DNA of 64,000 nucleotides from Branchiostoma floridae (Eukaryota; Chordata; Leptocardii; Amphioxiformes; Branchiostomatidae), in assembly GCF_000003815.2 (NCBI RefSeq), contig NC_049979.1, forward strand, positions 17,282,493 to 17,346,492. Reading direction: 5' to 3'. Below the pieces are notes generated by a model, which ran no database searches, was not told the origin of the DNA, and saw nothing but the letters and a program-made list of their open reading frames with translations. The position numbers and the translations under genes are program-made. Each line of letters opens with the position of its first letter. Position 1 is the first letter of the stretch. This document shows positions 7,710-63,540 of the stretch, piece by piece.

Positions 7710-7866
7710 CTTGCTGAGTTCAATGTGTTTGTGATGGGATACAATGTCGCTGGACAGCAGAGTTAGCCTACATTTCCCAGTTTCAGTAGGGGGTCACATT
7801 ACAGCCAACTGCTTTTTGCCCATCGTCGTTGGAAGCCAGTGGCTGATGGGAAAACAAAATGGCGGA
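7703..7866. promoter_or_regulatory. Bidirectional promoter between C1orf198 and PUS10
   Basis: The two start codons are 149 bp apart on opposite strands. Both are embedded in a YY1-type motif: CAAGATGGCGG read on the minus strand at 7703-7713 and AAAATGGCGG at 7857-7866 on the plus strand. Between them, CCTACATTTCCCAG at 7767-7780 closely resembles the ZNF143/THAP11 SBS element. There is no TATA box. This is the pattern expected of a housekeeping bidirectional promoter; binding itself is inferred. Confidence 0.6.
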
Positions 7867-16287: not shown

Positions 16288-19200
16288 CTAGTCCTTCCTG
16301 TCACATTGCCCGTATGGCCTGATGTGGTGAATGGCGAAGTCCAACACGTACATCATGATGGGCTCAGTGTAGTGGAACGAGATAGTGTGTTTGGAACAAC
16401 AGTCTGGACCCTGGTAGAGAAAAAAACAGTTTGTCAAACATACCATGTAGAAATATTCAGCTGACAAAATGAGGACCTTACAAGTCTTTGATAGCATGAG
16501 GAGAGAGGTCATCCAAAATCAAGTTTTTTTAGAAATATAATTAAGTAAATTTAGTTGAAAAGTTTGTATTTTTACTTGGGTGATGTTGACAAACCAGTGA
16601 GCTTACCGATTTGACAGGGTAGGTGCTGTATCTGTGGAGCCACTCTGGCAAGTTGCCCAGAACATGGTCCTGGAGACTCAGGCAGTGAAACGTCTGCCTC
16701 CCCTCTTCATCCCTGGAGTCACCTGCCAGAACACCTGCCTTCTCTAGACATCTTCCGATTTCCAAGTCTTCTGGAGCTTTAGAATGTAGTCTGCACTTCC
16801 TTGGGTCGTCCATGCCCTGTGTCACTAGTCTCCTCACAGCTTCTCTACTGAGCACATAGCCGGCACCGCCACTCATGTACCCATTCTTGGTGTCAGGTCT
16901 GATGGAGTTAAACCGGAAACCATAGTAAACAGGTTCCTCTGGGTTCTTGTTAGAGAGGAAGTGACGTAAATTCTCCATGATGACGTAAGTGTCATCATCA
17001 GCTTTCAAGAACCAATCAGCTTCATCGAGGTGATGTTCGTAGACATGTTTAAAAGCGTGGATAGACTTTTGTAAGAGAGACTCTCGCCCTTCTGTCACGT
17101 TTAGCACAACTGTTGGGAGGAAGCTGTGAGACTTGGTTGTGATGAAGAGAGTCCGGTCACATTTGGACGCCCATGTGTCGTAGGCGGGTAACGCCTTGCT
17201 GTCGTGGTTTTCGGGGTCTGTGAGGACCCAGCAGAGCACACGGACTCGGGACTTTTCTTTACCTTTGTTCATTGCTTGGAATTCTGGTAATGATAAAGAC
17301 ACAAAGAAGAACTAGTTAATTTCAATCAACTGTTACATGGTTCAGTGCAATAATCAAACTCTTCGATAATTCTTCCCTGGGCTTTTCCCTTGCACGTTTT
17401 TGTAATGACTACACAGCTGTCGACCGTCTCCTAAGACGAATAGAGCCCAAGAGATACAGCTGATATTAGCGTGCACATATTGAATGACGGAAAGCTTTGC
17501 ACCTTTTGGACTAGTGACCTTCAGGGGTGGTGGTGGCCCTGTAACATGAATGTCTTCTCCGCCCTGCATGAATGCCTCACTTTCTGTAGACAAACCATAG
17601 GGATGCATTATTAATTGAATGAAGACCTTTATTGTACAGTTTTGCCCAACCGAGCAAGTACAGGTCACAACAAGTCAGAACGTATATACATATAAAAGTA
17701 TCACAAATCTTGTCTAACACAGAAGTTCGGCTTCTTCTCACTTCTTGGTAATGGTGAAAATGTAGGACTGTATGGGTTTAGCTATGGTTGGTTTGTCGAA
17801 ACGCATGAGGAATATAAATTAATGGCATAAAGTGACACACTTCTCAAGTCAACGTCACTGAAAACTGCTTCAATCACGGCTTCAATCGAGATTTTTACTT
17901 TGTGACTTTCTGGGTTGACCTTTCCGTTCTCCACTGCGACGACTGAACTCCAGAATAATGTAACAATGTTTACTCCATAGTTAAAGGAAATGTGTACTGA
18001 ACGCAACTTCAATAAAATTTCATTAGGGCAACCTGACGTATGATATATAAATTACAAACCTTCCTTAGTCCGTCTGCTACTAATTTCAAACATATCACCT
18101 AATACACGTTTACACAGTCTGTATAAACACATTGCCTTGGTCCTGGCGAGCGCTGAACATTCCAATCAAGTATCTATCTCTAGATAGCGGTGTTTTCCTA
18201 ACGATGTCAAGTGGCTCGTGTGGTTTCCTGGTTACGCCACAAAGGAAGGGAATGAGAGCTTTATGTCACGTGGAGTTGGACTTGGACTATAGATAAGAAA
18301 AGAACGCTACTTGATGTAGCTACAGGAGTCTGGAATAGTATTTGAACCAATGTGTCTAGTTTGGTACGCTAATGGATAATGCTACATATATGGACGCCCA
18401 TCAACGCTTGTGTTAGTGATGAACGGGTTCTAAGTGGTCGCACCTACGGCTCCACATGGATTCACTCACTTTAGGAATGCAAGAACGCGATGTAGTACAT
18501 GAACTATACTTACTTGTGACCAAAACTTACCTCACTAGTGGATAGCAGTATTCCAACTTGCTGATCGTTTAGTTTTTGTTTTAAAGACTCCGTGATACAG
18601 TACTTGCAATCCATATCTCCAACCTTCACAACGTTACTCTCATGTAATTGTTACTTACATTTGCAGGGTGACTTGTTTAATGCCCTGTCGTGTCAAGCTT
18701 TACGTTGCTGCCCGGTGCTGATCTATCACACCAGCTTTTGTTCCTTCTTACAAAGCGCTCCACACAGTCTGTGTTAAGCAGCTAATTAGTTCGATAAGAA
18801 CTCCATGTTTCCACAACACAGGTGGAATTCTTTCTTTCGATATCTTTATAATGGATTTGTTAGGGCCTTTCTATTGTCATGTGTTACCGTACTTGCGATA
18901 AGTCGGCCCTCCCGACCGCCCCCTCGCCAATCGCCAATGATTCACAGGTGGTGCGGATGCACCTACCATGAAGAAGCTCAGAGCTACCTCAGATACACTG
19001 ATCTACTGATATAACTTACATTTGACACACGGTGTATGTGGTAACAACTGCGTGTTATTACATGGTGCAATAGATATAAGTCTGGTCAAAATCGGACGAT
19101 ATGGATTACATAGCGAAAGGGTGGAACCCGGAAAAGCTACCAACATACACAGTCATACTCTTAGTCTTACTGAGTTGTAGCATCAACAAAGTTTCATTTC

Positions 19201-20064
19201 CAGTTGCCAGGTAAAAGGACAACTTATGAATTCTTAGACTGTTAGTCTAGTAATATCAATCACAAGCTAAAGCTAGCAGCACACATAATTGAAAGCGAAG
19301 GTTGCGTGACAGCGGTACTAATGCCTCGGGGATACAATGGCACACTGTTGACTCTGAGTAATCAGAGGTTGGCAAGTGTTCAGGTCGACTGAAGTAATTG
19401 CATGTCAAATTGGATAGGGTCACCGTGTCGGTGAATTTGTATTAACTCCATGCGTGTTTACGTGCGATACAGTGTAGGTTTGTACCCAGGACCATTACAC
19501 CAAACCACTTGATCTCAAATCGCCTTGCCTCTGAACACGACTCTCTGCCATGGGCCCATCCTCCAACCATCTTTTCGTGATACCGTAGCCCATGATGATA
19601 CGTGAAGATATATACAGAGCATTTGCGTCTTTGTGTGATGTTTTCTGTTTAAAAGCATGCTGATAGACACAAATATTAACGGCAATGTACGAGCAGAGGT
19701 AATGTTACCAGGGAAAGTGGCTTATCCACAGTAAATCTTACGTTCCTGTCTTACACCGTACCTACTGAAGATGGTGAATACTGTTGTCGATTTGTTGTAG
19801 TCCAGCATACTCTATTTACCTACCTATGGTATCAAAATATCCCTGGCCCTGGTCTCTGCCTGCTTGGGGAGTGAGGTCCCCTACAGTCTCCTGTAATGTC
19901 CGTATGTACGACTGACGTCTCAGACCGTCATCAGGTAGTGGTTTATTCACTCCGTCCATCAGAACTTCACTGCTCACCACCAACATCGCTACAACCCCGC
20001 CGAACAGCGCGCCCACGGTGAATGTCATCATCGCGCGCTTTGTCGAGCCGTACTCCAGTGCCAT
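16288..20064 (-). CDS. C1GALT1: Core-1 beta-1,3-galactosyltransferase (C1GALT1/T-synthase-like)
   Basis: Three minus-strand exons, 20064-19824, 17283-16607 and 16410-16288, join in phase (G|AA, then phase 0) to give 346 residues; the human enzyme has 363. Exon 1 encodes a short cytosolic start and a signal-anchor helix at about residues 10-32, as expected of a type II Golgi enzyme. The catalytic exon carries RVLCWVLTDPEN, EADWFLKADDDTYV with the metal-binding DDD motif (about 176-178), YYGFRF, NGYMSGGAGYVLSREA and APEDLEIGRCLE. The last exon has GPDCCSKHTISFHY, the family's CCS-containing C-terminal signature. The enzyme adds galactose to GalNAc-Ser/Thr to form core 1 (T antigen) O-glycans. 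A possible extra exon at about 17521-17587 breaks the frame and was left out. Linking exon 1 across 2.5 kb rests on phase and topology. C1GALT1 is often a multigene family in invertebrates, so strict one-to-one orthology is not claimed. Confidence 0.88.
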
Positions 20065-22032
20065 GATGACTGCAAGAATGCCAGGACACGATTCTGTCTA
20101 GTCAGATTCCATCGACTCTGAGCGACTCGTGGAAAAACTTTCACATGACTCATTCAGAGACCCAGGCTCACCTAAAGAGCTTTGTTCAGGCAACATAAAA
20201 GTGTAGCTCAGCTACAAGACAACAGTTACTCGGGGTTTACCCTGAAACCTTCACAGTCAGGCCTTTGTGCTCCCAGAATCACTAGCCCTCAGGTACGACC
20301 TCTTCTGTGTCTGAGGTCCTGACTGCCCTCTCAGGAGGAGCGGTAATGAGTTGCAGGCGTGGCTTCAGGAGCATGTCAAATTCTTAACTCGTTAATTCAT
20401 AGCATCTAAGGAGGTCGTGACAGTCTCTACGCAATCTGCCGGTGTTTGCCTTCCGATTAGAAGTCTCACAGGTGTATATCCTGGTTGCGTCAGACTTCTG
20501 GTCTCAAGAGAACTTTGATCATGGCTAAAAGGTCAACGCCCGCGCAGGGAAGAAAACTTGACGACAGAAACTAGCGAGGAGACTTTGAGATCGACAATAA
20601 AACTCAGTCAGTGATTTCGTCACGTGGTGACCTGTACAGGACCACAAAAGGAAACATTAATCACGTTTATTGTTCACCCCGCGGTGTTTCATCTCCACCG
20701 TGTGGCGGTCCCAGTGCCCGTGATCCAGCAAACTTTTCACTGTCTGGAGACTATGAAAACAGCGTGGTGCTTATTTCATCGAGGCCAGGACCCAAGTTTC
20801 AAACGCGGAACACCTACATCCTACATCTACCAGGCGCACCGCTTGTATTTAATCTTCAAGCAATGGTCCTAAGCAGAGATTTGGCAAGAACTTATGAGGA
20901 CACGACAAGATTTTTTATCACTGTGGTTACGTCTGGTTACTGACAACAGATTCGAAAAGCCAAGTATAATGTCAGTAACAATTGATGTACGGATGCAACT
21001 GGCCTCCACATTGCAAAATGTGTAGTGATTTTGTTTCAATTGGGTGATCTTCATTTTGTCGGTACTTGTTTTTGGTATAGCTTGACGTACCTGGTTCAAA
21101 TCAGATGTGTTGATATGGGTAAAACTATCTATCCATCTATCGAAGTATTTAATCTCTCTCCAGCCAAGATGACCTTAAGAGTGTTGGTTGAAGTTTTACT
21201 TACGTATATACAATGCCTGCTGCTTCGTTGCATGGCCAACCGGAAACCTTACTTAACAGTTTATATACATACATATGCTCTGTAATCTTACACTTGTGTA
21301 CGCCGTTTGGCGACATTGGTTTGAATTACAACTTTTGGTTATCAAAGCAGGTGGCAATCTGAAGTACAGTGGACTCTTTCATCGCATCCAAAGGCCTTTG
21401 GGATTTCTCTTCTATTAGCTTTTGTCATCATCCAGTGTTTGTAAGGGGTAGAACCCTCACAATTTCCGGATCTGAGATTTTTCAAATACTAGTGGGAGTC
21501 TAGTAGCCATGTGAGGGATCACTCGGAAGGTTGTTGCTCCGTGCGACATGTGAGTCTTGAATGGAAAATTAAAGGTGCGATTAACAAGTTCAAAGGCATA
21601 CTAATACAGATCAAAGAAGAAGGCACGACAGAATGTTGTGTCACCGGCCACTACAGATGTGGAAAGTAAAAGCAAATTTGTAAATGATGATGACAACTGT
21701 TTTATTTTCTAATCTACCGAGAGGAGAGACACATCTTCACGATCTGTGTGTTGGAAGGGTACTACGTATATGATGCACAACTCTGTCCACCTTCAGTTTT
21801 GAAATGTACTGCAAATTTGTAAGATGAAACCACGCTTTGATATAGGATTTTAGATTATTATTTTTCATCTCCCTGGACCTGTAAACTAAACCAGCCTTTT
21901 TACCATAACAAAAGGCGGTCGCGTGGTGATGGTATTGTGTAACAGGATAAAGAATGCCTGGCGCTACCGGTCCTATTGTTCTCCTGTGGCAGACGTCATA
22001 CCCATGGAATCCCACTCCACGAGGCCGACGCT
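20065..22032. other. Intergenic region between divergent genes
   Basis: This stretch separates the C1GALT1-like start codon from the receptor promoter. It contains short random frames (for example 20611-20943, +) without splice context or known motifs. I see no gene. Confidence 0.5.
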
Positions 22033-22171
22033 GGGACTTCCCCTGCCCGATCAATACTTTTGTGCATGCGCATTAGCCACATTCCTAACCTGAGAAGTAG
22101 GAATGGGAGTCCAGATCGCGTCCCAAATCGACTCGGAGTTTAAATAACCGGTCCAGAACTGCTAGGTGAGG
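22033..22171 (+). promoter_or_regulatory. Putative promoter of the ZU5-death receptor, with a kappaB site
   Basis: GGGACTTCCC at 22033-22042 is an exact NF-kappaB consensus, 130 bp upstream of the start codon. GCATGCGCA at 22064-22072 resembles an NRF1 site, and tttaaataa at 22139-22147 is A/T-rich and could act as a weak TATA-like element. No transcription start is known; these are motif matches only. Confidence 0.4.
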
Positions 22172-25100
22172 ATGCACTGGCAACTGCTGTTGGTTTGCGC
22201 CACGTGGACCACACAGGTGAGCTATTCTTCATTAGCTATTCTGCATGCGATCTCTTAAAGTGTCCTGTCCGCCCGCCCAGACTCTACAGGTGCTTTGTTT
22301 GTCGTCTGCAAGCAGTCCGGAAACTGTCGGGTGTGGTGGTTTATCTGTGGCTTATCAAAGTAAAAGTCACAACATGCCAATCTGTTAGAAACTCACCTGG
22401 AGTAAATGTCAATCACCAAGAAGCCACATAAGCTTTACTAAGTTCCCAACATCATGAAACGATTTCTTTCTAATGCACACAAAAGATGACTCATCGCCAC
22501 GACTGTAAATAATGGGTGCTTACGGTGAACACCTATAGCCTCGGGTCGAACGGGTCGCGGACACAGCGGCATTGATAACAAGTGCGAGTAAAATATACAA
22601 GAGTAGAAAGACCTGTCACAACTGCCACTGGTATAGATAAACTTAAACTCCAAATAAAATAATCAAATAGAGCTCTAGCAACCTGTAAACCTTGCTACCT
22701 GTATGAATCAGAGTGTAACAGGTGCACATGTATCATGCATCATACCCATAAACACACGGTATGATGTGCTCGAGCTTCAGTAAGATTTCTGTATAACTAT
22801 AGGTTTGCTCTTACTTCAACTTGTAAAAAAACTCTTGTTCGAACCCTACCACCTGTATTTGGGATTGTTTACTCCCTGTGTCGATGGAAAAAGCTGTTGC
22901 AAGCCCCATTATTCAGAACGCCATAGTCATAATAAAATGAATCACAACCTACAGTTTTGTTACAGTCAGATCCTGGCACGAAAGGTACAGATTAATATTT
23001 ATCCCTAATGTGTTGTTGTCACGCGACTATATGTGATGGCCATATGTAGTCTCATCGATTGTTTTCTCACCTGGAAGTAGCAAACCTAAACCCCGTTGCC
23101 ATGGTAACAATACAAACACCGATTTGAAGAGAATGACTCACATTATCAAAAATTAATATCGCTATTCATCGACAGGCCATAATAATACTAATGCATCGCT
23201 TTCAAGTCACGACTTGCTCTTAGGTAAGCAAAGAAGTGGTGTCAAATATACTATATATTCCCAAAACAAAATTACATTTTTTTCGTTTTGCGTTTTGGAC
23301 TTGTTCCCTTTGGCCAATACATGTTGAACGAAGTACAGTACATGTTTTGAAACGAAAGATACAATTGCTTTGACTAACCATCCGTGCCGATTACAGAAAC
23401 AAGTGGTGACAGTGGTTTACTAGTAGAGATAAATTAGCACCTTTGAGACTGTTGTTTGGGTGTGGCGATAATGTTTCTCACACAGTATTGCGTACGGACT
23501 ATGGCATTCCACTCAACCCGGCAAACGGTAACAAAATAAACATGAGCAGAGCAGCTAACAAAGAGAAGTGCCCTGTTCTTCCTGTTTGCTAAGACGACAA
23601 AGTCTACGTTCGGCACGTTCGTAGGAGATTATAAGTTGGCATGTATTTTAGACGGTTAATGTTTAGGTCTTACATCATCCACAAGGTTTCACCCCAAATT
23701 ACAATAATTCATAGCAAACATGCATGAAACACCACCACAGCCATCGCAGTTGTGTATCACAGCACAGATGCTGGTATTGCTACTTTTGTGTGCAACAATA
23801 GGTAGCAGATCGAATACCATAACGATTAACGTTACCTCTGTAAAAAGACTAAGCCAGAAACCGACCTTTCCCATGCCAATTATTGGTTATGACGTGTGTA
23901 TACATTGTACATACTGGATCAGTTGTTTTCATGGGACAAAATATACCCTATTAAACCACGCAGATATAACGAGACAAAATCTGCCATCACATTGGAAGCA
24001 CTACTTTCAAGTTGCCGACATATCTACCATCAGAAATCAGGATAATAGATAAAAGCTACATAGCTAGCCTGTAGTGATATGAGCCGGTTTTTGGATTTAA
24101 CGTTCACAACAGTCCTTAAAGTTAAACAAGCGCGGTGTTATAGAACAACAAAAGGGAAAAGCTGACGAGTAGAAAAAGAAAGCTGGGGGTAGGATGAAGA
24201 CTAAAATCATGAAATTGGAGGGAAATGGACAAAAATATACTGAGCTGTATAGTACGACTTAAAACAATAGATTTGATGTTGTTGTTTACCATTTGTTGAT
24301 TTGTTTAATTGACCAAGTCAATATCAATTCTTACGCTGTATAACAATCGATGTATGATTCTTTAGGTCTCTTTGGTGGGAGCCCAGGCGGACTGCCATCC
24401 ACTGTGCTTGTCCTGCTATGGTCCAGGGTTGGACCAGTGCTTGCAGTGTAGCCAGTACAGTTATAACAACACGTGCGTGCAGCAGTGCCCACCATTAACC
24501 TTCATTGTAAACACGGACATACCTATTGGTAATGTCTCATACAATGATACGTTTCCTACTGCTCAGACCAAATCATCTGATACCAACAATGCTACCATTA
24601 CTAGTAATGATACGCTGCAGAACACCACCGCGCCGACAGAGGTCACTCCTGCAGGTGTTACTCCCGGTAACAGAGGTACCTGCGAGGACTGCCACTCTGA
24701 GTGCCAGGATGGTTGCTATGGCAACACTTCTCGTGACTGTTACCGATGTAAACACGTGAACTTCGACGGTACATGTCTGTCCTGCTGCCCGGAGGGAAGC
24801 TATCCTGATCCCGATGACTCTTCTTTCTGCGGGCGGTGCCATGAGGAATGTGAGAGGGGCTGTACAGGGCCGGGGCCCGCGAACTGTTACCGATGTAAAC
24901 ACCTTGAGTACGGCGGCAGGTGCCTCCACACATGTCCGGCTAAAACTTATCAAGCGCCTGGCACCCCTTCTGTTTGTCGGCCTTGTCACAACACATGTGA
25001 GGATGGTTGTGTTGGACCGGGACCCGACGACTGTTCCCCCTTGCCTCAGAACAACAGGTATGCGTGGACTATTACATCATTCATATTATTGCAAGAAATC

Positions 25101-28100
25101 CACCCTTTCCTTCTTTGGCTCAGATTGAACCTTTGAACCTATATGATACATGTATATATAATCTATATGACCAAAGTTGTTGATTATATGTCATGTGTGT
25201 ACCACATCAACGTCCTCATATTCTCTGTCCACTAGAGGGGGTCAGCCAATGATGTTGCCGATGGTCCTCACGCTAGGTGCTGTTGTGGCCTTACTACTTG
25301 TGGGCTGTTTGGTGGGGCTGGTTAAGAAGCGGCAGTCGAAATCCCGAAAACCACCTTCGTCTCCTGTAAGTAACTGTTTGCTTGTTTAATCACTACTAGT
25401 GGTCATTTATGAAAAGGTGTAGACATAAATTGCAGGTTCAATAACTTTTCAAAACAGCATTCAGAATCATGTCTCTGCACTTCCAACATGTAAACTGTAA
25501 ATGTTTCTTGTTAAGGCGATCGTAGCATGTCAGATACATGGCCTGCTTGGAAGATATGTCTTAAAACAATTTCTCTTTGTAAAAATGTATGCTTTTTTAT
25601 GTAAGGGGTAGCGTCAAAATAAGTCTTGTACTTGAGTGCGCTACCTCTTTGTCATATTGTGCTATTGTTTAAATATTTGAATTAAAAAAAAAAAAACTTC
25701 TGTTTCAGACGCGAAACCTTGCCTGCTATGAAGCCGGTAGTGTCAGTACCATCGCTATCCCACTAGGCCCAGAAGAGACGTCTATGAGCGACTTGTACCG
25801 AAACATCTGCCTTGACAACGCCACATTCACAAACGACAGCGACGACGAAGTGGACGTGTCCCCAAGCCTTGTGTTAGCCGGGGGTCGCTCAGACGACCAC
25901 AGCTCTACCGTTTCAGACTGCCCCGACACCGTGAGTGAAGGAGCGGTCTCCAATGAGTCCAGGTCGACCGACAGTACTGTCGTGCGCATGCCGCTACCAT
26001 CCTCGGCACGGCAGACACGTGACGTACAGTCTAGTTTTGGAAATGTCGCCTCGTCTACGTGGTCTCCGGACCAGAGCTCCTCACAACAGGCCCTAGACAA
26101 AATGGCGGCGGGGTGTCGTTTCAGTTACCTGACGGACGACAGCGGGATAGTGAGTGACGGCTCACGGTGTTCTACAATGGACAACCAAAGTCGGTGGAGC
26201 GTCGCTACGAGTGGCACGGTTGGATCCGGGGACTCCAGAGTGTGTCTGCAGGATACGTCAGATACGGCTATAAACAGGAAACTGTCACAAGACGATTGTG
26301 AGGAAGATGCCCGTTGCACATCTGAGTCCTTGCAAGGGGCTCCGTCAGATAAAGAGAGTACTGGAGATGAGACTAAAACTTTGGGTGGTCAGTCCGCCGA
26401 TAGAGAAGACATCACCTTGACGCAACTGCTGTCCAAGTTCCGTGGCATCGTGGGCGATCCCGGGGCCGTTCAGCCAGATGCAGTCAACTTCTCCACACCG
26501 AGATTCGTCGCTGGAATTTTCGACAAACGAGGCGGGCACCTGACGTTAGAAAATCTTGGGATGGACCTGTACATACCCCCGGATGCTGTCGATCAGGACG
26601 GTACAGAGATATTCATGTACGCCCGTGGAGCAGACGAGTCTGCAACGGAAGAGACAGACAAGAAGTGGACGCCTCCTGTCATCCAATGTGGTCCACATGG
26701 GCTGAAGTTCAAAACACACGTGATTTTGACCTTGAAACACCCCGCTGAGGACTTGAAAAAGTGGTCGTTCAAGTTCCAGGCCAGTAATACTGATGTTGGA
26801 GTGACCCCGGATTGGAAGGACCTTACCAAAGACCCGTCTGCCCTGTGTTTTGCATATGGAGACAAAACAGTCATCTTTGTGGACCATTTCACCCTGTACA
26901 ACGTGAGTGGGGAGCTTGTAGGTGCAGACGGTGAAGATGGGGGAGAGAAACCCGAATGGCGGCGATTCAGAGTGGGAGTCTTCGCCGAGCCCTTGTTTCT
27001 AGACACCGAGATCTTCCAACTCAGGGTCCGCTGTTGGCAGGACAACGATAACGAACAGAAGGTTAGTGTTGTCTTTGATATTTTTTTCTTGAAGTGTTTG
27101 AATTGACAATTTCGCTTGATTTGACCCTTCTATGTTGATTAGACGTTGCAAATACATCTGTGGCAATTAGATACTGATACACCACATGTAAGAACACAGT
27201 AACAGTGAAATACAGCCAGTAGAAAGTGTCATAATTATTGCACTTTTCTATCCGTTCCCCCCAGCGGTCGCGAGAGAAGGAGAGGTATCTGGGAGCGGTG
27301 CAGCTTGGTGACGACAAAGTGCTCCACCTAGCGGGAGACGGTGGAAATCTGTCCGTGGTGCTAGAGCGCCTTCGTCCCGGATGGTTGGCTCTGAACGGCG
27401 ATAGACAGGTCAGGATGAATGGATGTACTGAACAAATCATATCAACTATATCGGAATCTACATTTTGATATTTTATTCTGACTCCTGTTCTACAGCTGAT
27501 CCATTTGGCTCTTGCTCGGTATTGTACATAATCTTTATGTCTATGTATGTCTATGCTGTTCAATAGCCCCACACCAGATTACACAAATTTGACAATGTGC
27601 TTGCTTCTTTACAGACCATCCCCTTCCCCAGCCTGTGGAACGAGCATGCTGAGATGCCGTCCTGTACGTTTGACATCGAGAGACAGCCATCAGGACTCGT
27701 TCCCAAGATCGTGGCTTGCAGGGTGACGGCTCTGCAGGTCTCGTACCCAGACAACTCTGTCAGTCTCGACGTTCTCAAACAGCTGTGTCCCCGGGGCCGG
27801 CAGGTGCGTTTGTGTGTCACGGGAATGTAATACATCACCTTATCGATATGCCGTCCATTTTTGTTTATTTTAAAATCCTGATGCCAAACAACATTGTACT
27901 GATGATTTGCTTGTTTAACTAAAATTACTATATTGCTCAACTAATTTCACAACTTATCATTTTATTTTCTAGGGTATTCAATCTTCCCAGGCACCTGAAC
28001 GTCCCTCGGTCGCGTCTCTTGACTCAGAGTCGACGTTCCTCCGCTTGCAGCCTGAGCTGCGCCCCACCCCGAGGTGCCTGCCACAGTTTCCCCGCGAGGA

Positions 28101-29118
28101 CCAGTTCGGTCTGCTCTGTCTGGTGTTAGACGTGGAGGACCCGGCCGGGAGGGACTGGCGCAGCGTGGCGGAGACTCTGCATCTGCCGTTTGAGTTTCTA
28201 CAGTGGATGAAGCAGCGAGGAGACCCCACCAGGCGGATGCTGGACTTCCTGGTTGCACAACACGGGGGAGACTCATTACGTGTGCTGAGGGATGCACTTG
28301 CGGCGATCGGGCACGAGAGGGCGCAGCAGATGGTTGAAGCAATGATGGCATCTTCTCACCACTGTCCTGAGGGCAACTATAGTACGGAACAGCAATGGTC
28401 GTCTGATAGACAACCATTTGCCGGGATATGGAACAATGACGACAGGCGAACATCCAGTAATCGCAACACGACACCGAAAGTGCTTGGGGGTTCTGCTGTC
28501 TTTGCATCAGGGCCTCATAGGTCTGGTGATTGCAGTGAAACTCAGGCATTTTCAGTCGGCACATCGTGCGGCAGCACAACGGTGGAGAAAGTGTCCGGAG
28601 ACAGGTCACTGGGAGATGGGCAAGAGACGGACGCCTCCATGACCTCAACCACAAGCATCACTCTCGAAAACGCTCCAGCCACGCAGGGCAACAATCCAAG
28701 TTCTATAACTGTGCCCAAGACATTGAGAACCCAGGACAGTGGGTATCACAGTGACGACAGGAGCCCAGGAGGTGAAACCAACTTAGCATTTACGATGGAG
28801 GACGAGACAGGAAGTAGTCGGAGACAGGAGGCAAAAGTAGTCAAGGCAACACAGGAGGCGGAAGAGGTCAACTCCAGTTCTGCACCGCCCACCGGTGAGT
28901 CAACCACAGAATCAGATGGAATTAACCAAGACGCCGAGGAAAATTCTGCTCCCCCTGAGAAAAGCACAGCCCCATGGCCACTGCTGATGAATTTGAAGAA
29001 CAAAGTGTCCATCCGATCCAAAAGTCTGCCCGATCTTCTGTGGGGGCAGAGTAAGACTGATGCGGCGAAGCAGGCCAACAAAAACATCTCATCTGATCGT
29101 CTCTCGCAAACACTGTGA
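22172..29118 (+). CDS. Receptor with EGFR/furin-type cysteine-rich ectodomain and ZU5-UPA-death-domain tail
   Basis: Seven exons: 22172-22216, 24366-25057, 25236-25365, 25709-27061, 27265-27408, 27615-27803 and 27973-29118. All phases fit and give 1232 residues. A signal peptide (MHWQLLLVCATW..., cut near GAQA/D) is followed by furin-like cysteine repeats to about residue 240. Their pattern CHxECxxGCxGPGPxxCYRCKH resembles EGFR domain IV. An N-glycosylation-rich Thr/Asn linker interrupts them at about 60-115. A membrane helix lies at about 254-275 (MVLTLGAVVALLLVGCLVGL), followed by KKR. The cytoplasmic part has a Ser/Asp-rich linker (290-550), a ZU5 domain (about 555-665), a UPA domain (about 710-850) and a death domain (about 890-975; DWRSVAETLHLPFEFLQW), then a Ser/Thr tail. 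ZU5-UPA-DD is the signalling tail of UNC5 netrin receptors and of UNC5CL. The Ig and thrombospondin domains of UNC5 are absent. DSGxxS motifs occur at 433-438 and 1106-1111. Ligand and pathway are unknown; apoptosis or NF-kappaB signalling is inferred from the tail. Exon 1 is the least certain. Confidence 0.85.
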
Positions 29119-30178
29119 ATAGATTATAGTCGTGTTCCGATCCTGACAGTTTAACCATCTTTCTACACTTTGTATTTTATACCTCTGTAGTTGCCTTACA
29201 AAAGAGCGTTACAGAATCCCCATTGTATACTTTTCGTAATGTCTTTGTATATGTAACAGGCCTAGTAGTCCAGCCCTTAGGCTGCAACTTGGCTGTCGCT
29301 TTAGAGAAATATTCCTGTCTACTTTCAGACCGTAATATAACATTTGGTGGGTCCATGAATTAATGGAGATGGCGATGATGTTTGTGAAATAAATTTTACC
29401 AGGTTGTTACATATTTTCAAGCAAGGAACAGAAAGTTGGAAATGTGTGATATAGGTGAAGAGATATAAAATTCAAGTACATGTAACTAGAATAGAGAAAC
29501 ATTGTTTTATGGTGTTTTGATAATTTTTAAGTTGGTGGAAAGTAATGATGAAGGTTGTATGGGCGACATAGGACGCTGGCGGCTCTATGTATGCGACTTG
29601 AGAATTCTTTAATACTTTATTTTATACATCACATGGGACACGTCAAGGGTCTTTGTATCGTGTAGTATTTCACTTACTGGAGCTCACATTGTGAACTACA
29701 ATACATTTGTACTGAGTAAACTTGCTATCATAAGGTGACAGCGTGTTCTAATTTGTCGGCCTTTACTACTATGGATGCGACAGAAGACACCCATATAGAT
29801 GTACATTTTAACAGTTCAATGTTGTATATCGTGCCGTTGTTGACTAATAAAAAGTAGTTGGCAACAGTGTTCATCTCTGTGGTGGTTTTTGTCCATAGTC
29901 TATTATTTACGTCGAGAGTAGCTGCTGTTAATTCTCTCTAGTACTCACACATTTCCTACCGATGAACAAGGCCTACACATGCCATAGACAGCAATAAGCC
30001 ACATTGTGTATAGTAAGAGAATGTGTCATACATTTATATCCACATCTATTATGAGAGAAGTAGAACTATCCTAGCTTGTTACTTGTAGAAGGCTATCATT
30101 TTGGCAGTTTTTGTAAACTTTCACTGTAGGAGCTTACCAATTCTAAAATATCAGGGGTTTAGGACGGTTTGTATAATG
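29119..30178. other. Convergent 3' UTRs of the receptor and the tandem ZU5-UPA gene
   Basis: This stretch separates two stop codons on opposite strands. Plus-strand AATAAA signals lie at 29388-29393 and 29846-29851. The second is followed by a GT-rich stretch (about 29863-29890), typical of a cleavage site. No further gene is seen. Confidence 0.55.
29846..29851 (+). terminator. Candidate polyadenylation signal of the receptor gene
   Basis: AATAAA is followed within 20-45 bases by GT-rich sequence (tctgtggtggtttttg). An upstream alternative is AATAAA at 29388-29393. Sequence motif only. Confidence 0.5.
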
Positions 30179-33100
30179 TTACTGCCATGTCACCACGGAC
30201 GTCGGACCTATCCCCCTCACCACTGCAGTCGGGCTGACTCGGACGCTTCCATCTACAGTACACGGGGGTGCCAGTTTATCCTCACTACCGAAACAAGACG
30301 CTATGGTCTCATACTGACTACCAGTCTTGCTGACTTTCCGTCTGGGGCTGGGGTTAACAATACTTTGGTAACGGCCTTTGAAGGCAGCGTTCTCCGTGGG
30401 ATCGGGGCGTCGTTCCTGGTAGGCGTGCATCCTGTTCTCCGTGGGGTCGGGGCGTCGTTCCTGGTAGGCGTGCATCCTGAAGTGGAGGTTCTTCAGTCTG
30501 TGGTCGGTGTGGCACAGAACAAAGGTCCGCACGGGGAACTGGTTTCGCCACACAGAATCCGTCGTTACTTGCTAAAAAGAAAATTCGACATTTATAATAT
30601 GTCTAAAGTATCATATACACGTTTTTTTAAGTGATGGATAAAAATTGCCTTACGAGACAGACATAGTTTGTATTTTCATCATGTGGTCGCTATCTCATCA
30701 TCAGAACTCTGATCAGAAACGACCGGTACCATTTTTCTATGTCACACCTACTTTCCAATTATGGATGCATGCATTGTTTTACCCTGCCGTTGCCCTGTAC
30801 CTACAAATTCTGCTACCACCACTGTCCATTATCCACCTTACCTGCTGTGTTAACCCGCGGAAGGCCCATCCTGGACCGGGGTCCTGAGCCTGTACACAAC
30901 AGTTGTCACCAGGGTACATACAGCTGATGGACAGGCCGCCGCACTGTCTCCGGCCTGCCTGGCCCTCCTGCTGCCGTATGCACTACAGTAAGATAATACG
31001 TGTCTTTTAATGTAAGTGGTCAATAATGACAATCAATGGTACTCTACCGTACAAAAGCAACATTAAGTAGAACAAGTTACCAGAACATATGATATAGTCA
31101 CATGGAGATTGAAAGAGGGTGGGACGGGACAGACTACGTTTTTTTTAGTCGGAGAACAATGTTAACCTCTGTCATAAGATCATCACAATAAACAAACGTG
31201 CCCACCTCCAAAGCATCCGCCGTGTCGTTGATACAGTATACGCGAATGTTGACATCTTCAAATGTTCCTAACTGCGGCCCAAAAGCCACGAATCGCACAG
31301 TCTTGCCTGGGTCAGATCCCCTCACTATCGGCGCGAAGGACACGATCTTGTTCATGTGTACAATACACTTGTTCTTCAGGAAGCAGGCCCGGACGTTCAC
31401 AGCGTTCTGGTCGTCTTTTTCTGCGTCATTGGTGAGAAGGCGCCAGGATTTGTTTTGAATAGACATTTCCTCACAAGCAAGAACTGCTGGCGTGCTCTGA
31501 CTGTTCAGGAGACCGCAGTGTTCGAACACTAGTGTAGCTGCCTTCTGGAGCTGGACTCCCGACGGGCCACACAGCACCACCGGTCCGATCAGACTTTGGG
31601 CGGGCTCCAGGCGCGGACGGTCCGCGGTGTCCCAGCTCACAGACAACAGGATGAGAACCTGCTCGCCATCGGGGATCGCCTTCGGTGGGATGAGAAGTTC
31701 AGCTCCGCAGCTGGGAAGCCGCAGTACCGCACCCCTGGCATCCACCATCCGGGAGGTATAGCTTACCCCCTCCATACCCTGCACTCTCAAGCTACTGGTG
31801 AAAGACCTGTTGAAATTCTCGTCAGTACTGTGTGTAGATTTGGGGCTCATAGCGCCCGGGTTGGTAGCGTATCCAGTGTCCTTACTGTTATCAGATTGTC
31901 CGTCAGAGTCCTTCGTATTGTCTCCTGTGTCCTCTCCATCCGACTTGATCTTATTGTTGAGTCCTTCGACCGCTTTACAAATAGAAGTGATATCTACAAG
32001 TTCACTTTGTCTGTCAACCGTCGTAACTTTTTTCGTTTCAGTGGTGGTTTGGCGTTCCACTTTGTTTATTGACTCTGTTATAGACTTTGTTTCTGAAGTA
32101 TATACCTCATGGTCACTGCGGCTTCTTTCATTACTCATCGTTTCTTCTTCGTCCTGTTTTGTCGGTGTGCTGTCCTGTTGAAGCTGATCAGGTGTATGTA
32201 GCATGGCAGTAGGAGAAGCGTCGCCCACCACTGTCCCCTCCTCATCAGAGTCCTGAATGAATGAACAACAGAGAGTACCATCATTATCATAGACAGAATG
32301 GAATAGTCACTTCAAAAAGACGTTTGCTAGGAGCCGATTTCGCATGAAAGTTGTGGTTCAAATATTTAATGAACTTTGAGACAAGTGTTGTAACCTAAAT
32401 CAATTCAACTGTTCTACCGTGAGATTGCCACACACATCTGCCTCCATCTAGAAACCAGTAGCAGTTTGAGTGCTCTTAGCTGAATGCTACAACTAGAAAT
32501 GTACCTAGTTGAGTCAATATTTGGCGACACTAAATCGTCGTGTATCTCCAACTTGTCGCTATGCTGCTCGTCGTGCTACAGTACCCAGCCATACATCACG
32601 TCTGCCGCAATGCGCAAGTGTACTTCGCGGTACTTCCTTGTCGACTCCATATACAAGGAGATAATCAAATTCGATCGTCCACGACTGTTGTACCACTCCA
32701 ATACACTGTAAGTCAAACCGGATCGCTTGTATCTGGCAGTAGATAGATTTGTCAGCAATGAAGGTAGGGAACCAAATATCGATTTCCAGTTCCAAACCAC
32801 TCAGCAGCTGCAGGTTGTCTTGATATTGACTGTGCACCACGGGCTGAAGATGATATGATCACGCCGTGTGACCCTCACTGTCCTCTGTACTCTAATTCAT
32901 CGACTGTTTGGGTTGCGATAACAGGGTTTTCACTAGATTAAACTACCGTCCAAATAATCTCACTTGGAGTGGAGAGAGAGTTCCAATCCTCTGATATACT
33001 TTTTATCATGTACAGCCAACATAATCTGTGATGTTGTGTTTTTTTAGCCTCATTAGAAATATACATGGACGTCGTTGCAGAAGTACCGAATTATCGTTAT

Positions 33101-36100
33101 GAATATATTATAACGATTGTTATCATGTTATGCAAAGTTCGTCGAGATTTGAAAATTACTTTACATCTGGACGATGTATAAATTGCAAAATTAATATTTC
33201 TTGCGGGACTTGTTATTTTGTCCCATAGTTTGTGACGAAATGGATATAGGTCAACATGTACTTAAGACCCCGAGATTTCCAGTGATATATGCATGATGTG
33301 GCACACATCGCTTGACCTGTGTTAATCACGTATTGATGCGAGAGATGATTAGTTCAGACCCAATCAATGTGTTAATGAGGAATATCATAGCCATCATGTA
33401 CAGATCAGACATGTCTGTCTCTCCTGAGAGGAAGGACAGGTCATAATGGCGGTCAGAACATGATAAAATCTCAATTTAGAATCATGTTCATTGATTTTCG
33501 ACCCATGTCTTTTTTATTAACTTCATGTATATCTACTATTTGTTCATCACGTGTATGCGAAAGGCGAGGAAAGCCCGTCAACAAAGGACGCTGAACCTGC
33601 ACATGTAGACTCACCATACTCCAATGGAGTGGCTGTCCATCCATTATGTTAATGTGGCAATGTGTTCTTCAGGGCAATCACTAACTAAACAAATGTTAAT
33701 TCTTGCATGCCTGTGCACATGGTGCCTTTATTGCAATAAAATGGCAAAAATGCACTTTTTTTACGGTAAAAGACATGCCATTTACAATGTGAAGAGAAAT
33801 GCAGCTGTAGTTTTCGGTTGCCTTTTTACACAGGCTCATGGCTATCGGGCACCAAATGGTTTCCCATTGTTATTTTTTTAAACACAGGGCATGAATGACG
33901 CTATCGAAACTAGGCATATTACATAAGAGATAATCTTTTTGAAAAATCTCGCAGAATCTACGCACATTTCCAATGTACCTTTTTTATACAAGTTATCAGA
34001 CAGACAAGACGTGACAAACGAAGTGTTGGCGCACTCAAGTTTACAAACTTATATCAGCGCCACCACTATACATAAATCCCAAATCAATAGTACATGGTAT
34101 GACGGCTACCTGTGACGGGACTCTGAGCGTCATCTTGACGTAATCGTCGGCGTCCTCGTCCACGTGCTGGAATGCCCGGATGTCCAGACGCAGGTGTTCC
34201 ACCTCCGACTGTTCCTTAGCCGTGAACTTGAAGATACAGAACGGAGATGACTGGTGCCAGATGGACTTGTAGCTGATAACCTGAGGGGTGCGAGTGATAG
34301 GAGTAAGGCACGATTTCGCAAGCACGTGATTTTACAATAGCTGTTTTCTTTCCTATCAACTGATGTTTCTCCTTTTCAGTTCACATCTCATAATATCATA
34401 TCATATCATTTCATTTCCAAGAGAAGATATCATTTCATTTTCGGTGATTCAATCGTGTGTATGTTACCCATTTGACACATGCTGAATACCAACTCTCGCA
34501 CTTTGTGTAGGAATATTTGCACATACATCATCTAAGAAACTAATGACAACAATACAACCGCACGGTCCCTGTTATCTTGTGATTGAGCCCACACCCACAC
34601 ATCTGGCCTCATAAACTTGCAACGAAGCATGTTATGAAAGATATTACAGGTTGAGGCTTTATGGGACACTCGTTTTATTTCCGCCGTAATCTCTTTAATG
34701 GATCGTAATATTTACAGCCACTGGTCTCTGGCTTAAGTCTACAGGGAATGTATGTTTGTTTTCCCAAATCAAGGACCGATACCAACCCGTTGTTTTCATT
34801 GACGCATTCTTGAGTAGTGTGTAATATCACATTCCGTTCACGTTTTCTGCATCGCTGATTTGTCCCGATAAAGTTACTTCATTCGATGCATTTTGAACGA
34901 CACGAAATGAATGTGTGAGTAAGGCCAGAAATGAAAGGTCATAGAGCTTGCCATCCACATAGTACCAAGTTGTTACAGAACATTTATTACATTTTGCCTG
35001 CCGATGTGATTTAATGGAGCAAGAGATCTAGACTACAGTTCTACACCCCACTCCCATCCTCCATATTTTTTACTATTATTACCAATAATGACTCTGTTTT
35101 ACAGTGTCGTCTCACTTCCCTTTGTCTCTAGTCCGACAGTGCGGGTTGAGATATTGACGCGCGGGTCGTTATTGGCCCATCGGGATGAGTTATGAAACCA
35201 CCGCACTTCAGAAATGTGAAGACTCCATAGAGACGTGCGGAACGCTGTCGGGGAGAGATGAGACAGCGCCGACAGGTGCGCGGTGTCAGGAGACATCTAT
35301 CACGCACACGCAGCACCGCCGGGTCGATACTTATCATATTGCTGATATCCAGACAACTCAAACAGTCGCACGGGGTTCCGCCTCCACAACACATTAAAAT
35401 CGATATCTATAAACCAGTAGCAGAGTGGATTGAGCTATTATCAAGGGAAAATACAGTAAGACATAATTATAACTATTAGTATTAGCCGGAAGTGTCTAAA
35501 AATCTATAAGACTACGTTCGACTCCCTTCAACCCGTAATTTTGAACGACAGCAGGATTGAAGTGCGGAAATCGATAAAAGCATATTCTTTTAGCATGCGG
35601 CATTGCAATTGTGGCTAACGGCCAGGATGGGAAAGTGCTCTCTCGTGATACATGTTTTCAACAGAACAAAATGTACGAGGGAAATGCAAATCTTAGATCT
35701 AAGAAGGGACGCAGGTTACATTTTCCCTCGTACACTTTGTTCTGTTGAAAACACGATCACAAGAGAGTACTTTCCCATCCTGGCCGTTAGCCATAATTGC
35801 AGCTGAGACAAATGCTTGAATATTTGAGTATACCTGCGGTATTGGATGTGACTCTATAACAAGGTAACGTAAGGCATAGAATCGATTACTTCATCGCGTA
35901 AACCAATATTTGTTTCACCCAGAACGCACCTATGGTTGTCGGGGTCGACTGTCTAATAACTTCAACTGTGTATAACTGATTTACCAGACAATCGGTTCTG
36001 TCAGAGAAATGTCATCCAATTAGGAAGCCCGGAGAACGCTCGGAATTTCTATGATTGAGTCTGCGTTAGGAAGGCAGGTCCTGCCCTGCAGGGTTTATGC

Positions 36101-39100
36101 CAACAATGCAGAAAGTAGGAAATGGAGACGGCTCACCTTCTTCAGTTTGGTAGGGTTATGTTCTTCCACGTGCTTCAGGTTGTGCCTAATGCGCACGCGC
36201 AGCTCGGACCCGTCGTTGTAGAAGGCCGAATCGGCGGTTGTCATGGAAACCAGCGTACCACGTGTCGCCTCCTTCTTTTCCAACACCTGAGAAACAAAAT
36301 GATGTATAAGTCAGAAAAAAATTCATATTAACATAATATGCATATGCGCCTGCCTGGTACTAGGTTCCGAGCCACATGCAGTAAAAGCACATGAGAAGAG
36401 TAGCTATCCCTGAGTAATGGTCCCTGCTTTCATATACTATATGAATGTCATCTGTCTTTATTCAAACAATCCATCGATGACTTTTTTTACATCAATATGG
36501 TTTCCTTCATAAAGCACCATCTTCGAATTCCCAAAACACATCCCCATCCCAAGATAACTGCGAGTACAGAGTACACAATATAACCACGGGAGTATACATG
36601 ATTTCCCTGCGGGCCACCAAATCACCTAGTGAATTACCTCTGTTCAGTCAGTTCGGTCAATAGACGATTTTGTCTTTTGCACAATAAGAAACAAGCACCA
36701 CAAGTTTGCCCAGGAGAAAGCAAATACATCTTGTAGTGTGCTAAACGATAATGATATATTCATCATTGTATTTTGTAAGGTCAGATGACCAAAGGGAAAA
36801 GTTGCCAAAACGGTACAATAAGCTGGGATAGATTGCAATAACGACCGGTACGGTTTGTCTTTCCAGTGAGTAATGTAACAGTGCCATCTATGTTCGGACC
36901 TAATGTTCAAAAGTTAACTGTGAAGTCACTTTAACTGTCTAGTCAGCGTGGCGGGTTGGGGATCGTGTGCCCGATGATAGATCATCTGTTGTAGAAAAGG
37001 TAACGTAAGTTATTCTAAGACCATATTCCATGGTTGACACGTTTCATCTTATTGATCCTCCATTTTTTCATCATCCAGTCACTTTTCATTCATTATGGTT
37101 CTATTCACATCCTACCTTCGCGACCAAAGCTACCAAGGCTGGTCTCTACGTTACTTTGTTCCACTCTTTTCAATAACGGTCTCTTCGTCCCTGGGCTCTT
37201 TTCTTTCTTGCCAATACACATCAATCCAATTTTCTGTCACTGGAACTTCCACAGACAATTTCATCTCATCTAGGCACAATTACATTTCAAACAAGACCCA
37301 GATGAGACGATCTGTCTCCCTGTCGGGTCTGTGATGTCCAATCAAGCAGTGCAACACAGGCTGCTGTCCAACTCACCGGCACGTTTGTTTTGGTTGGTTA
37401 AACCAAACCAAAACCAAACCAAACGTTTGTGAGGGACTCATAACGATAAACCAGGGAGGTGACATTGTGTTTTGAGAAATGATGAATCATATCACGTTAT
37501 CAAGTACAACATTACATCAATCAATCCCCATGTTTCTGTAAATCAATCAGCCTTACCTGCACGACTCCCGGGACGGCATCAGTGCAGTACACTTTGACCT
37601 GTGGGGAGATAATTCAGCAGATTGTGAGTAAATATCGCTGACAATTCCGGAATGAGCAAGCTCTTAATACAATTTGTACGACGACGATCTAGTCCCTCGT
37701 ACCCAATAGACGAGGTGGCAAGATTTCTCCACGCTGATAGCACACAGTAATGGATCACCCGGGGTTCTACTGTCTCGTGTTGTACTGAGCCATATATCAC
37801 AATATACATAGCGGCACAAACATCCATTTGAGGATTACAAGAGAGTGCTACTTGGCGTTTGAATGAGCCTTGTCGGCAAATAAACAGATTCGTAGGTACA
37901 GGTAGTTAAAGTTTTGTGAGGGGAAAGGTAATTGTACGATCTTGAATATTTTTGCAATGTACAACGTGCTGTAATTCTTATCTAGAGGTAACTCTAGTGG
38001 CTCTATCACTTTTTTTGAGAGGACATTTTAGTTATATCGCATACACCATGGACCATTTACAAGTTGCAATGAGTGCAGACCTGTTAGTTTGGGGCTTTGG
38101 GCAGTGCCATAAAGACTGACATCTCATCATGTACTGATAGTTTTACTCACACTACCTATATATTGGGGTACTAGTATGTGTTTTCCTGACACAACTCGTG
38201 AATCAAAAGCTAAACAAACTGTTACAAGTGTGTGTTTTTCTTTTAGACATCCATTGTTTTACCCTTCATATCACATCCATAGAATGTATCAAGGGCCCAC
38301 ACAAAGTACGTCAGTCACTGCAGAAATACACAGGATTATCTCGATTACGATGATGGTTCTAACACAAAGGAGGAGGATTATGAGAGAGCCAACCGTGACA
38401 CATGACCTTTCCAATTGATAATGGATAGTTGTCGTTGTTATAGTCACTGTCATGGCGCCACGTAAAACAACAAAGGCTTTGAACCTACAGGAGAACAATG
38501 GCGACCCGGTCTATATACACACGGGAAGTACGGAATGTTACAGTGTACTTGATCGTAACTTCTGAGTTCCTCTTGGCAGCGAAGATTATTCTGCAGGGTA
38601 TGGTACAGTAGCAAACAGCTACTGTTGTCATTCCACCTAGGCGTTGTCAGTGACTGGATCTTAATAGTGCGCGTACAAGAGATACACAAAGACGCCTTTT
38701 ATGACATCTGGAGATCTTAAGATCGCAATCTGACCCATAAATGTATGTGTGTGATTATTTGCTTACAGACGATACACGTAAGCCTTAAGTTTACTTCAAG
38801 CATTAGCTTTGATGTCAGCTTTAACTAAGCAAGTAGGAAGTATATTTGCCAAATTCTAGTCAAATATAAACAGAAGCCCACATAATGAAAACACAATAGA
38901 TAGAAATAGTTTTCTATTTGAATCAATGAACAACAGCTGCAACTGTCAATATGACCATTAGACAAATTGGTCTTTCTAGACGGATAAATCGTTTCATCAT
39001 TGTATGCATGTTTGAACTGACCTTGACCATGCCTTTGGCCCTGATGAGGTGAAGATACGCGATGATCTTCACTCTCTTACAGATCAGGACGTCATCGTTC

Positions 39101-39813
39101 TCTTCTCTTCCCAACAGGACATAGGCACCTGGAACTCTTGTCTGCATGCTGACTGTTCCCTGGTCCACGTCAGGTCTGATCTCTTCCTCACCTCCCACTG
39201 TATCGAACCACTCAGGCTCTTGTGTGTTAAAGATGATGCCTTCATTGTAACAGACCCTGTACTTCCACCCTCCCTCTCCCTCCTCGTCTTCTTCCACCAG
39301 AGCTGAGTGTGGGAACACGAGGGTGGCGGGCAGGTTCAGCTTGCCGAAGTGAGGTCCGAAGTAAACGGTGGGGCTGAGAAGGGATTCCGCCAAGTCTGAT
39401 AAAACTGGGCGGTAGTCCTTGTGCCAACTTAAGCCGAGATAAACTTGTATTGTCTCGCCTTCGGGCACTGCTCCCATGGGAACGTTAAGGCGTACACCTA
39501 CCTCGGGCAGTTCCAGCTCTCCCCCTGACGTGTCGAGCCATTTACTCAAGAAGGTTGATCTCCTTTTCTTCGGCCAATCTTCGTCCTCAGATTTTCTGGG
39601 ACTTCTAAATGGAAGATTCCAGGCAGCCCAGCTGCCATTGCCGCTCACGGACATGGCGCTGCCGTAACTGTTGTTCAGCGAGTCGGTCTCTGACTCGAAC
39701 TCGGAGTTGAAAGAGTCCAAACGGCATAGTTCCGGGGGTGGTCGTGTGTTGCATGCTGGCTCTAACACCTGTTCCCCCGCCATCGTTGTACAGACTGGTG
39801 CAGCTTCGGGCAT
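30179..39813 (-). CDS. Tandem ZU5-UPA / ZU5-UPA protein, UNC5-tail-like
   Basis: Seven minus-strand exons: 39813-39022, 37598-37557, 36286-36137, 34280-34110, 32252-31206, 30982-30842 and 30571-30179. Every junction is phase 0, giving 911 residues. The start is supported by an in-frame TAA six codons upstream. Module 1 is ZU5 (about 90-235; GGELELPEVGVRLNVPMGAV) and UPA (about 255-370; VKVYCTDAV, then SIWHQSSPFCIFKF). A Ser/Thr/Asp-rich linker (386-550) follows. Module 2 is ZU5 (about 552-700; GAELLIPPKAIPDGEQV) and UPA (about 705-860; NIRVYCINDTADALE, matching the UNC5 UPA signature, then SVWRNQFPVRTFVLCHTD). There is no signal peptide, membrane helix or death domain, so it is probably cytosolic. 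ZU5-UPA units can form closed supramodules or bind death-domain proteins in UNC5, PIDD1 and ankyrins, so an adaptor or decoy role is possible but unproven. A 45-bp in-frame duplication lies in the last exon. The large introns (32253-34109, 34281-36136, 36287-37556, 37599-39021) hold only repeats that I can see. Exon 6 (30842-30982) is the weakest link. Confidence 0.8.
30391..30480 (-). repeat. 45-bp tandem duplication inside a UPA-domain exon
   Basis: Two adjacent 45-base units, 30391-30435 and 30436-30480, differ at two positions. In the minus-strand frame each encodes a 15-residue unit containing MHAYQERRPDPTEN, so the frame is kept. The other UPA modules in the window have only one copy of the corresponding segment. 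Confidence 0.9.
35605..35800. mobile_element. Foldback (palindromic) MITE in an intron of the tandem ZU5-UPA gene
   Basis: Two arms of about 80 bases (roughly 35605-35685 and 35718-35800) are near-perfect reverse complements. The outer ends are gcaattgtggctaacggcc and its complement with one change. The inner parts include gttttcaacagaacaaa and ttgttctgttgaaaac. A short spacer joins them. No clear target duplication is visible, and it has no coding capacity. Such a palindrome would form a strong hairpin in the pre-mRNA. Confidence 0.8.
37384..37424. repeat. Short AACCAAACC-type inverted/simple repeat
   Basis: The run ttttggttggtt is followed directly by several aaccaaacc units, making a small low-complexity foldback within an intron. 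No function is indicated. Confidence 0.6.

Positions 39814-48249: not shown

Positions 48250-63540
<15,291 letters not shown>

Follow-up and report, generated by a model that had tools for sequence, protein, structure and literature searches.

A lancelet gene predicted to join EGFR-domain-IV-type modules to a ZU5-UPA-Death tail with a candidate self-cleavage site

We describe a gene of the lancelet Branchiostoma floridae, here called gene A, that very likely encodes a receptor with EGFR-type cysteine-rich modules outside the membrane and an UNC5-type tail of ZU5, UPA, and Death domains inside it. Gene A lies on the forward strand of a 64,000-nucleotide stretch (the window; C1:17282493-17346492 of a searched genome of 513,431,437 bp in 431 contigs), and positions below are those of the window unless a contig or locus is named. 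Its ZU5 domain carries a His-Phe-Thr (HFT) motif on the column at which PIDD and CARD8 are cleaved. We see about an even chance that gene A is a domain-shuffled, single-pass type I death receptor whose ZU5 domain cleaves itself at this motif. The candidate cleavage site is the main added value of the analysis. We know of no described protein with this receptor pairing, although public annotation may list the gene under a predicted name.

Gene A is modeled with seven exons. Between 22172 and 29118, these exons have GT-AG sites and join into one uninterrupted frame of 1232 amino acids (aa). A sequence-only reading of the same DNA had proposed a phase-consistent seven-exon model, and its outer coordinates agree with ours to the base. 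The predicted features are as follows.

22172..22216, + strand: likely exon 1, predicted from the sequence, with the start codon and the first half of the signal peptide (MHWQLLLVCATWTTQ)
24366..25057, + strand: exon 2, with the end of the signal peptide and the entire Cys-rich ectodomain
24393..24488, + strand: first furin-type module (aa 25-56), with a Thr/Asn-rich linker after it
24690..25034, + strand: Pfam GF_recep_IV match (aa 124-238), covering two complete furin-type modules and half of another
25236..25365, + strand: exon 3, with the transmembrane helix and the basic stop-transfer sequence KKRQSKSRK
25709..27061, + strand: exon 4, with a Ser/Thr-rich juxtamembrane linker, ZU5, and the first part of UPA
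25844..25855, + strand: DEVD, a caspase-3-type motif (aa 335-338) between the transmembrane helix and ZU5
26138..26155, + strand: DSGIVS, a DSGxxS motif (aa 433-438)
26510..26776, + strand: ZU5 domain (aa 557-645; Pfam 3.5e-15, above the curated cut-off)
26885..26893, + strand: HFT (aa 682-684), candidate autoproteolysis site with the scissile bond Phe683-Thr684
26960..27755, + strand: UPA domain (aa 707-835), over exons 4, 5, and 6 (Pfam 5e-9, above the curated cut-off)
27265..27408, + strand: exon 5
27615..27803, + strand: exon 6
27973..29118, + strand: exon 7, with the Death domain, a 257-aa Ser/Thr-rich tail, and the stop codon
28114..28344, + strand: Death domain (aa 899-975; Pfam 7.1e-6, above the curated cut-off)
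28735..28752, + strand: DSGYHS, a second DSGxxS motif (aa 1106-1111)
29388..29393, + strand: AATAAA, a possible polyadenylation signal, with a second copy at 29846, both 3' of the stop codon

The GC content of exons 2-7 is 0.54-0.60, against 0.31-0.40 in the introns. Because an in-frame TAG directly precedes exon 2, an upstream exon must supply the start. A search of 20000-24300 for phase-0 stretches that run from an ATG to a donor scoring over 3 bits on a donor-site matrix returned 16 candidates. The stretch at 22172-22216 is likely to be exon 1: it has the best donor of the 16 (10.9), and its leader ends ...VGAQA ahead of the first furin-type module. Its hydrophobic core (1.47) is under our preset filter of 1.6. 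An alternative exon 1, running from 23720 or 23768 to 23893, has a stronger leader core (2.73) and a weak donor (3.7). Intron 1 contains AATAAA three times (22653, 22931, and 23535) and ATTAAA at 23950, and introns 2-6 contain no AATAAA.

The ectodomain resembles domain IV of the EGFR family. Exon 2 encodes 29 Cys and seven N-glycosylation sequons; a single furin-type module comes first, and beyond the Thr/Asn-rich linker stand two complete modules and one half module. The hydropathy maximum, at about aa 251-275, follows and precedes the basic stop-transfer sequence. Pfam matches to GF_recep_IV (2e-20) and Furin-like (2.1e-13) are both over the curated cut-offs. Among solved structures, 66 distinct sequences match the ectodomain at E-values up to 1. 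The 60 best of these are EGFR, ErbB2-4, and LET-23, save two with general names (9mtx, “receptor protein-tyrosine kinase”, and 1n8y, “protooncoprotein”), and the very best are LET-23 and an EGFR (3ltf). For the tail, the best of eight structure matches is UNC5B (3g5b), which extends across ZU5, UPA, and Death (3.1e-20). By these comparisons, gene A has its nearest solved relatives in EGFR-family domain IV for the ectodomain and in UNC5B for the tail.

Gene A fits none of three familiar receptor types. The UNC5 ectodomain consists of Ig plus TSP1, and the five Pfam hits to the complete gene A protein (E up to 10) include neither family; we therefore reject UNC5 proper. EGFR proper is likewise rejected, since the protein has no Pfam match to Recep_L or a tyrosine kinase, and a TNFR-type ectodomain is rejected for want of a TNFR match. 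The sequence-only reading had named Furin-like, ZU5, UPA, and Death domains, all of which are recovered above the Pfam cut-offs, with GF_recep_IV in addition. Its EGFR-type outside and UNC5-type inside thus stand on both Pfam and structure matches, but the growth-factor-like or TNF-like ligand that it suggested does not, as there is no Recep_L match on contig C1 and no TNFR match. The HFT motif, the DEVD motif, the neighboring ZU5 gene, and the ZU5 genes elsewhere in the genome, these last outside the window, go beyond what that reading noted. One single-protein contig scan with exon 4 found no close prokaryotic relatives, and one single-protein viral-contig scan with exon 2 found no close viral relatives; both scans are sensitive to close relatives only.

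The gene A ZU5 domain may cleave itself. When aligned with UNC5B, His682-Phe683-Thr684 of gene A falls on Gln676-Leu677-Gly678, and UNC5B His624 is retained as His633. UNC5B Leu677 is reported to be the counterpart of the buried Phe in the SF/S site of CARD8, and CARD8 His252, which is needed for processing, to be conserved with UNC5B His624 (D'Osualdo 2011, PMC3210808). According to the same paper, the self-cleavage sites are HF/S in PIDD, located behind the ZU5 domains, and SF/S in CARD8, and Ser, Thr, or Cys can start autoproteolysis. In local shuffles of the 949-residue cytosolic part, HF[S/T] occurred anywhere in 7.1%. By an arithmetic estimate, a chance occurrence exactly on the PIDD/CARD8 cleavage column would be far rarer.

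The motif recurs among lancelet ZU5 domains. We found 41 ZU5 matches genome-wide, three of them within the window; here and in the other genome searches, only the best candidates were scored, exon by exon, so that the figures are not absolute counts. Direct translation gave 19 matches whose frame stays open for 150 aa or more, reaching past the cleavage column, and the 22 shorter frames were left out of this set. HF[S/T] is present in 16 of the 19 (14 HFT and 2 HFS). An alignment of the 19 retains His in 16 and Phe in 16, which ties these two columns for sixth place, and the four columns that precede them reach 0.37; Thr is counted 13 times in this alignment, with one sequence cut at 150 aa. 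A second count, over 37 distinct ZU5 loci outside the window, gave 13 that align across the cleavage column and 24 with no alignment spanning it. All 13 have HF[S/T] (12 HFT and 1 HFS), and 12 of them are just 22-34% identical to gene A.

We propose that gene A may act as a pre-cut receptor. In UNC5B, ZU5 is reported to keep UPA and Death closed until ligand opens them (PMC8897508). NLRP1 and CARD8 are described as cleaving themselves between ZU5 and UPA, with the held fragment freed on N-terminal degradation (PMC7794386). Since gene A combines an UNC5-like receptor and supramodule with a PIDD-like cleavage motif, a pre-cut, held UPA-Death fragment is favored. The predicted outside of this receptor is a stack of furin/EGFR-domain-IV modules without the ligand-binding L domains of EGFR, and the inside is a supramodule of ZU5, UPA, and Death of the UNC5 type, which follows a long linker rich in Ser and Thr. 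ZU5 would cut its own Phe683-Thr684 bond, in parallel with the HF/S self-cleavage of PIDD, and yield two pieces, one held in the membrane and the other, UPA-Death, kept in place without a covalent link. A ligand-induced change, a caspase cut at DEVD-338, or loss of the upstream part by degradation could then free or unmask UPA-Death, which would assemble a death-fold complex and lead to caspase or IRAK/NF-kappaB-type signaling. An output in apoptosis or NF-kappaB is something that we infer only.

Several observations weigh against a self-cleaving death receptor. Three of the 19 ZU5 frames have no HF[S/T], namely both units of the neighboring gene B and locus L042. Another seven frames, 123-140 aa long and ending close to the column, have no motif in that frame (L025, L036, L037, L039, L040, L043, and L044); HFS is present in another frame of the locus in L025 and also in L017. 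The nucleophile would be Thr rather than Ser, and the cited passages of the literature contain no tested ZU5 domain with Thr. UNC5B Glu666, which forms a salt bridge to the Death domain, is Tyr672 in gene A, and the UNC5B Cys663-Cys670 disulfide is not kept, with one Cys replaced by Thr676. Structure prediction, run on the ZU5 piece of three window sequences and on the gene A Death domain, added nothing firm, the models being of low confidence (mean predicted local distance difference test score of 53.2 for ZU5 and 57.0 for the Death domain). The DEVD motif could be due to chance, as it appeared in 2.35% of local shuffles and was one of several motifs tried. Finally, a locus on C5 (L015) has a gene A-like tail without the furin module.

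The cytosolic part carries other motifs. Both DSGxxS motifs together occurred in 0.4% of shuffles; the first, DSGIVS, is a motif of the beta-TrCP phosphodegron type. Because several motifs were tried, we treat the shuffle figures for DEVD and DSGxxS as leads. TRAF motifs were set aside, with one loose match to each of three patterns, and gene A has no C-terminal PDZ ligand.

The position of DEVD, between the transmembrane helix and ZU5, would also suit a receptor that depends on its ligand for silence. Gene A would then be cut by a caspase at DEVD in the absence of ligand, much as UNC5B and UNC5C are, without any self-cleavage of ZU5, and HFT would be structural. Caspase-3 is reported to cut UNC5B and UNC5C at D412 and D415, releasing a fragment that holds ZU5 and the Death domain (PMC8895126), and the closed-supramodule model of UNC5B (PMC8897508) is also in keeping with this explanation. 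However, the presence of HF[S/T] in 16 of 19 ZU5 frames would need another reason. UNC5B itself has no HF[S/T] motif, which indicates that the ZU5 fold does not require it. We consider a pure dependence receptor unlikely.

Other lancelet ZU5 domains are found behind different candidate ectodomains. Two loci on C4, L010 (29.78 Mb, 2393-5614) and L011 (30.85 Mb, 2334-5474), each encode, within a single frame, leucine-rich repeats (LRR), then a hydrophobic segment, TIR, and a ZU5 domain that carries HFT (1074 and 1047 aa, respectively; the L010 frame includes a masked stretch). They appear to be Toll-like receptors that continue into a ZU5 tail. Neither has a UPA match among the tabulated matches, and only in L011 is there a Death match, about 2.6 kb downstream, which may belong to the same gene. 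At L014 (C17:12.98 Mb, 4374-6893), ZU5 with HFT, a UPA match just under the cut-off, and Death share one 840-aa frame. About 1.7 kb upstream of this frame, 2205-2702 encodes a leader of signal-peptide type together with a short Cys domain, without a Pfam match, that resembles Fn14; this stretch may belong to the same gene. L012, on C2, combines a hydrophobic segment with an HFS-bearing ZU5 and UPA; its Death match is partial and under the cut-off.

Gene A might instead be an inflammatory receptor, in which the tail would signal to IRAK/TRAF6 in the manner of UNC5CL or MyD88-class Death domains and the ectodomain would sense microbes or damage. Such a role is compatible with the self-cleaving receptor proposed here except for the output. 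Taken alone, the gene A Death domain matches NRADD, UNC5B, and MyD88 with similar strength (E 2.4e-4 to 1.1e-3), and related ZU5 domains lie behind the LRR-TIR receptors L010 and L011. We judge this role, too, to be unlikely.

The loci on C4, C17, and C2 may also point to a lancelet receptor class, which we consider less likely than not, in which interchangeable ectodomains would sit on one self-cleaving ZU5(HF/T or HF/S)-UPA-Death tail, with NLRP1/CARD8-like release at the plasma membrane. The candidate ectodomains are EGFR-domain-IV modules (gene A), LRR with an intracellular TIR (L010 and L011), a short Fn14-like Cys domain (L014), and an UNC5-like one (L012). A total of 139 Death domains has been reported in amphioxus (PMC2246300), and Death is described as the domain with the strongest over-representation in dispensable (shell/cloud) lancelet genes (PMC12373286).

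The pairing of ectodomain and tail was found in the genome only once. GF_recep_IV has six matches: gene A exon 2 and five in two places on C18 (two below the cut-off). At both C18 places there are Recep_L matches as well, a combination found in EGFR genes. Recep_L itself has 12 matches, 10 on C18 and two on C2. With the gene A ectodomain as the query, we obtained its own exon and three weaker matches of 35-48% identity, two on C18 and one on C2. Thus, among the best candidates, no second gene pairs an ectodomain and a tail of the gene A types. The two EGFR-like places on C18, at 10.19 and 10.64 Mb, are about 0.45 Mb apart and on opposite strands.

The closest relative of the tail is L015 (C5:24.86 Mb, about 2375-6963), whose ZU5, UPA, and Death domains are 68-73% identical to those of gene A, with the same UPA pieces. 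There is no GF_recep_IV match on C5, and the L015 tail indicates that such a tail can exist apart from the gene A ectodomain. Within the 4.8 kb upstream of its ZU5 we find a long repetitive frame with a 72-bp spacing and no Pfam match, and a short CxxC-rich exon that looks zinc-ribbon-like by eye. A one-base frame change just before ZU5 means that L015 may be a broken copy or reflect an assembly error. The different upstream sequence of this paralog, together with an in-frame ATG at 25784 in exon 4, ATTAAA at 25681 in intron 3, and read-through of the exon 3 donor that would stop after seven codons and give a tail-less membrane protein, would allow two genes, a short furin-repeat membrane protein (exons 1-3) and a cytosolic ZU5-UPA-Death protein (exons 4-7), but phase fits at every junction, including the sole phase-2 one between exons 2 and 3, and introns 2 and 3 are short (178 and 343 bp) and without AATAAA, which makes this very unlikely.

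The convergent neighbor of gene A, gene B, encodes ZU5-UPA-ZU5-UPA.

30179..39813, - strand: gene B, 911 aa, all introns in phase 0
39813-39022, 37598-37557, 36286-36137, 34280-34110, 32252-31206, 30982-30842, and 30571-30179, - strand: exons of gene B

Gene B has no Death match. Two introns within UPA coincide in aligned position and phase between gene A and each gene B unit, which supports both gene models. The last exon of gene B contains a 45-bp tandem duplication (30389-30479; 97-98% identical, 15 codons).

Gene A shares parts with several known systems. UNC5A-D are also type I receptors with a ZU5-UPA-Death tail, but the gene A ectodomain is of the furin/EGFR-IV type, and its HFT corresponds to QLG in UNC5B. 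UNC5CL is a ZU5-UPA-Death protein with a membrane anchor, whereas gene A has a full Cys-rich ectodomain. In PIDD1, NLRP1, and CARD8, as in gene A, a cleavage-type motif closes ZU5 ahead of UPA; gene A differs in having HF/T rather than HF/S or SF/S, and in being a predicted membrane receptor with no LRR or CARD. EGFR, ErbB, and LET-23 share the domain-IV-type Cys-rich modules, but gene A has no kinase match, and C1 has no Recep_L match. ZU5/FIIND autoproteolysis has been predicted for some TRADD-N proteins fused to FIIND or UPA-ZU5 (PMC8195603); the main text of that paper names neither furin nor UNC5, and gene A, a receptor with an ectodomain, has no Pfam match to TRADD-N. Amphioxus “shortcut” receptors such as a TNFR-caspase protein (PMC2575513) likewise join a lancelet receptor ectodomain to a death-pathway domain, but the domains differ, and neither ZU5 nor furin appears in the main text. 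In the open-access literature, we found nothing that joins amphioxus with furin-like and death domain, or with UNC5 and death domain, and ZU5 with furin-like and death domain led only to a GPC3-Unc5 structure.

Elsewhere in the window, on the - strand, are frames related to other families.

7338-7721, - strand: DUF4706 frame
16667-17257, - strand: Fringe/galactosyltransferase-like frame
52552-53946, - strand: reverse transcriptase frame

If the proposed reading of gene A is true, it adds to the evidence that lancelets rewire death signaling by swapping the outsides of receptors. Self-cleavage of ZU5 is known in the cytosolic proteins PIDD, NLRP1, and CARD8. The HF/T motif in 14 lancelet ZU5 frames bears on whether membrane receptors use it as well, with Thr as the nucleophile.

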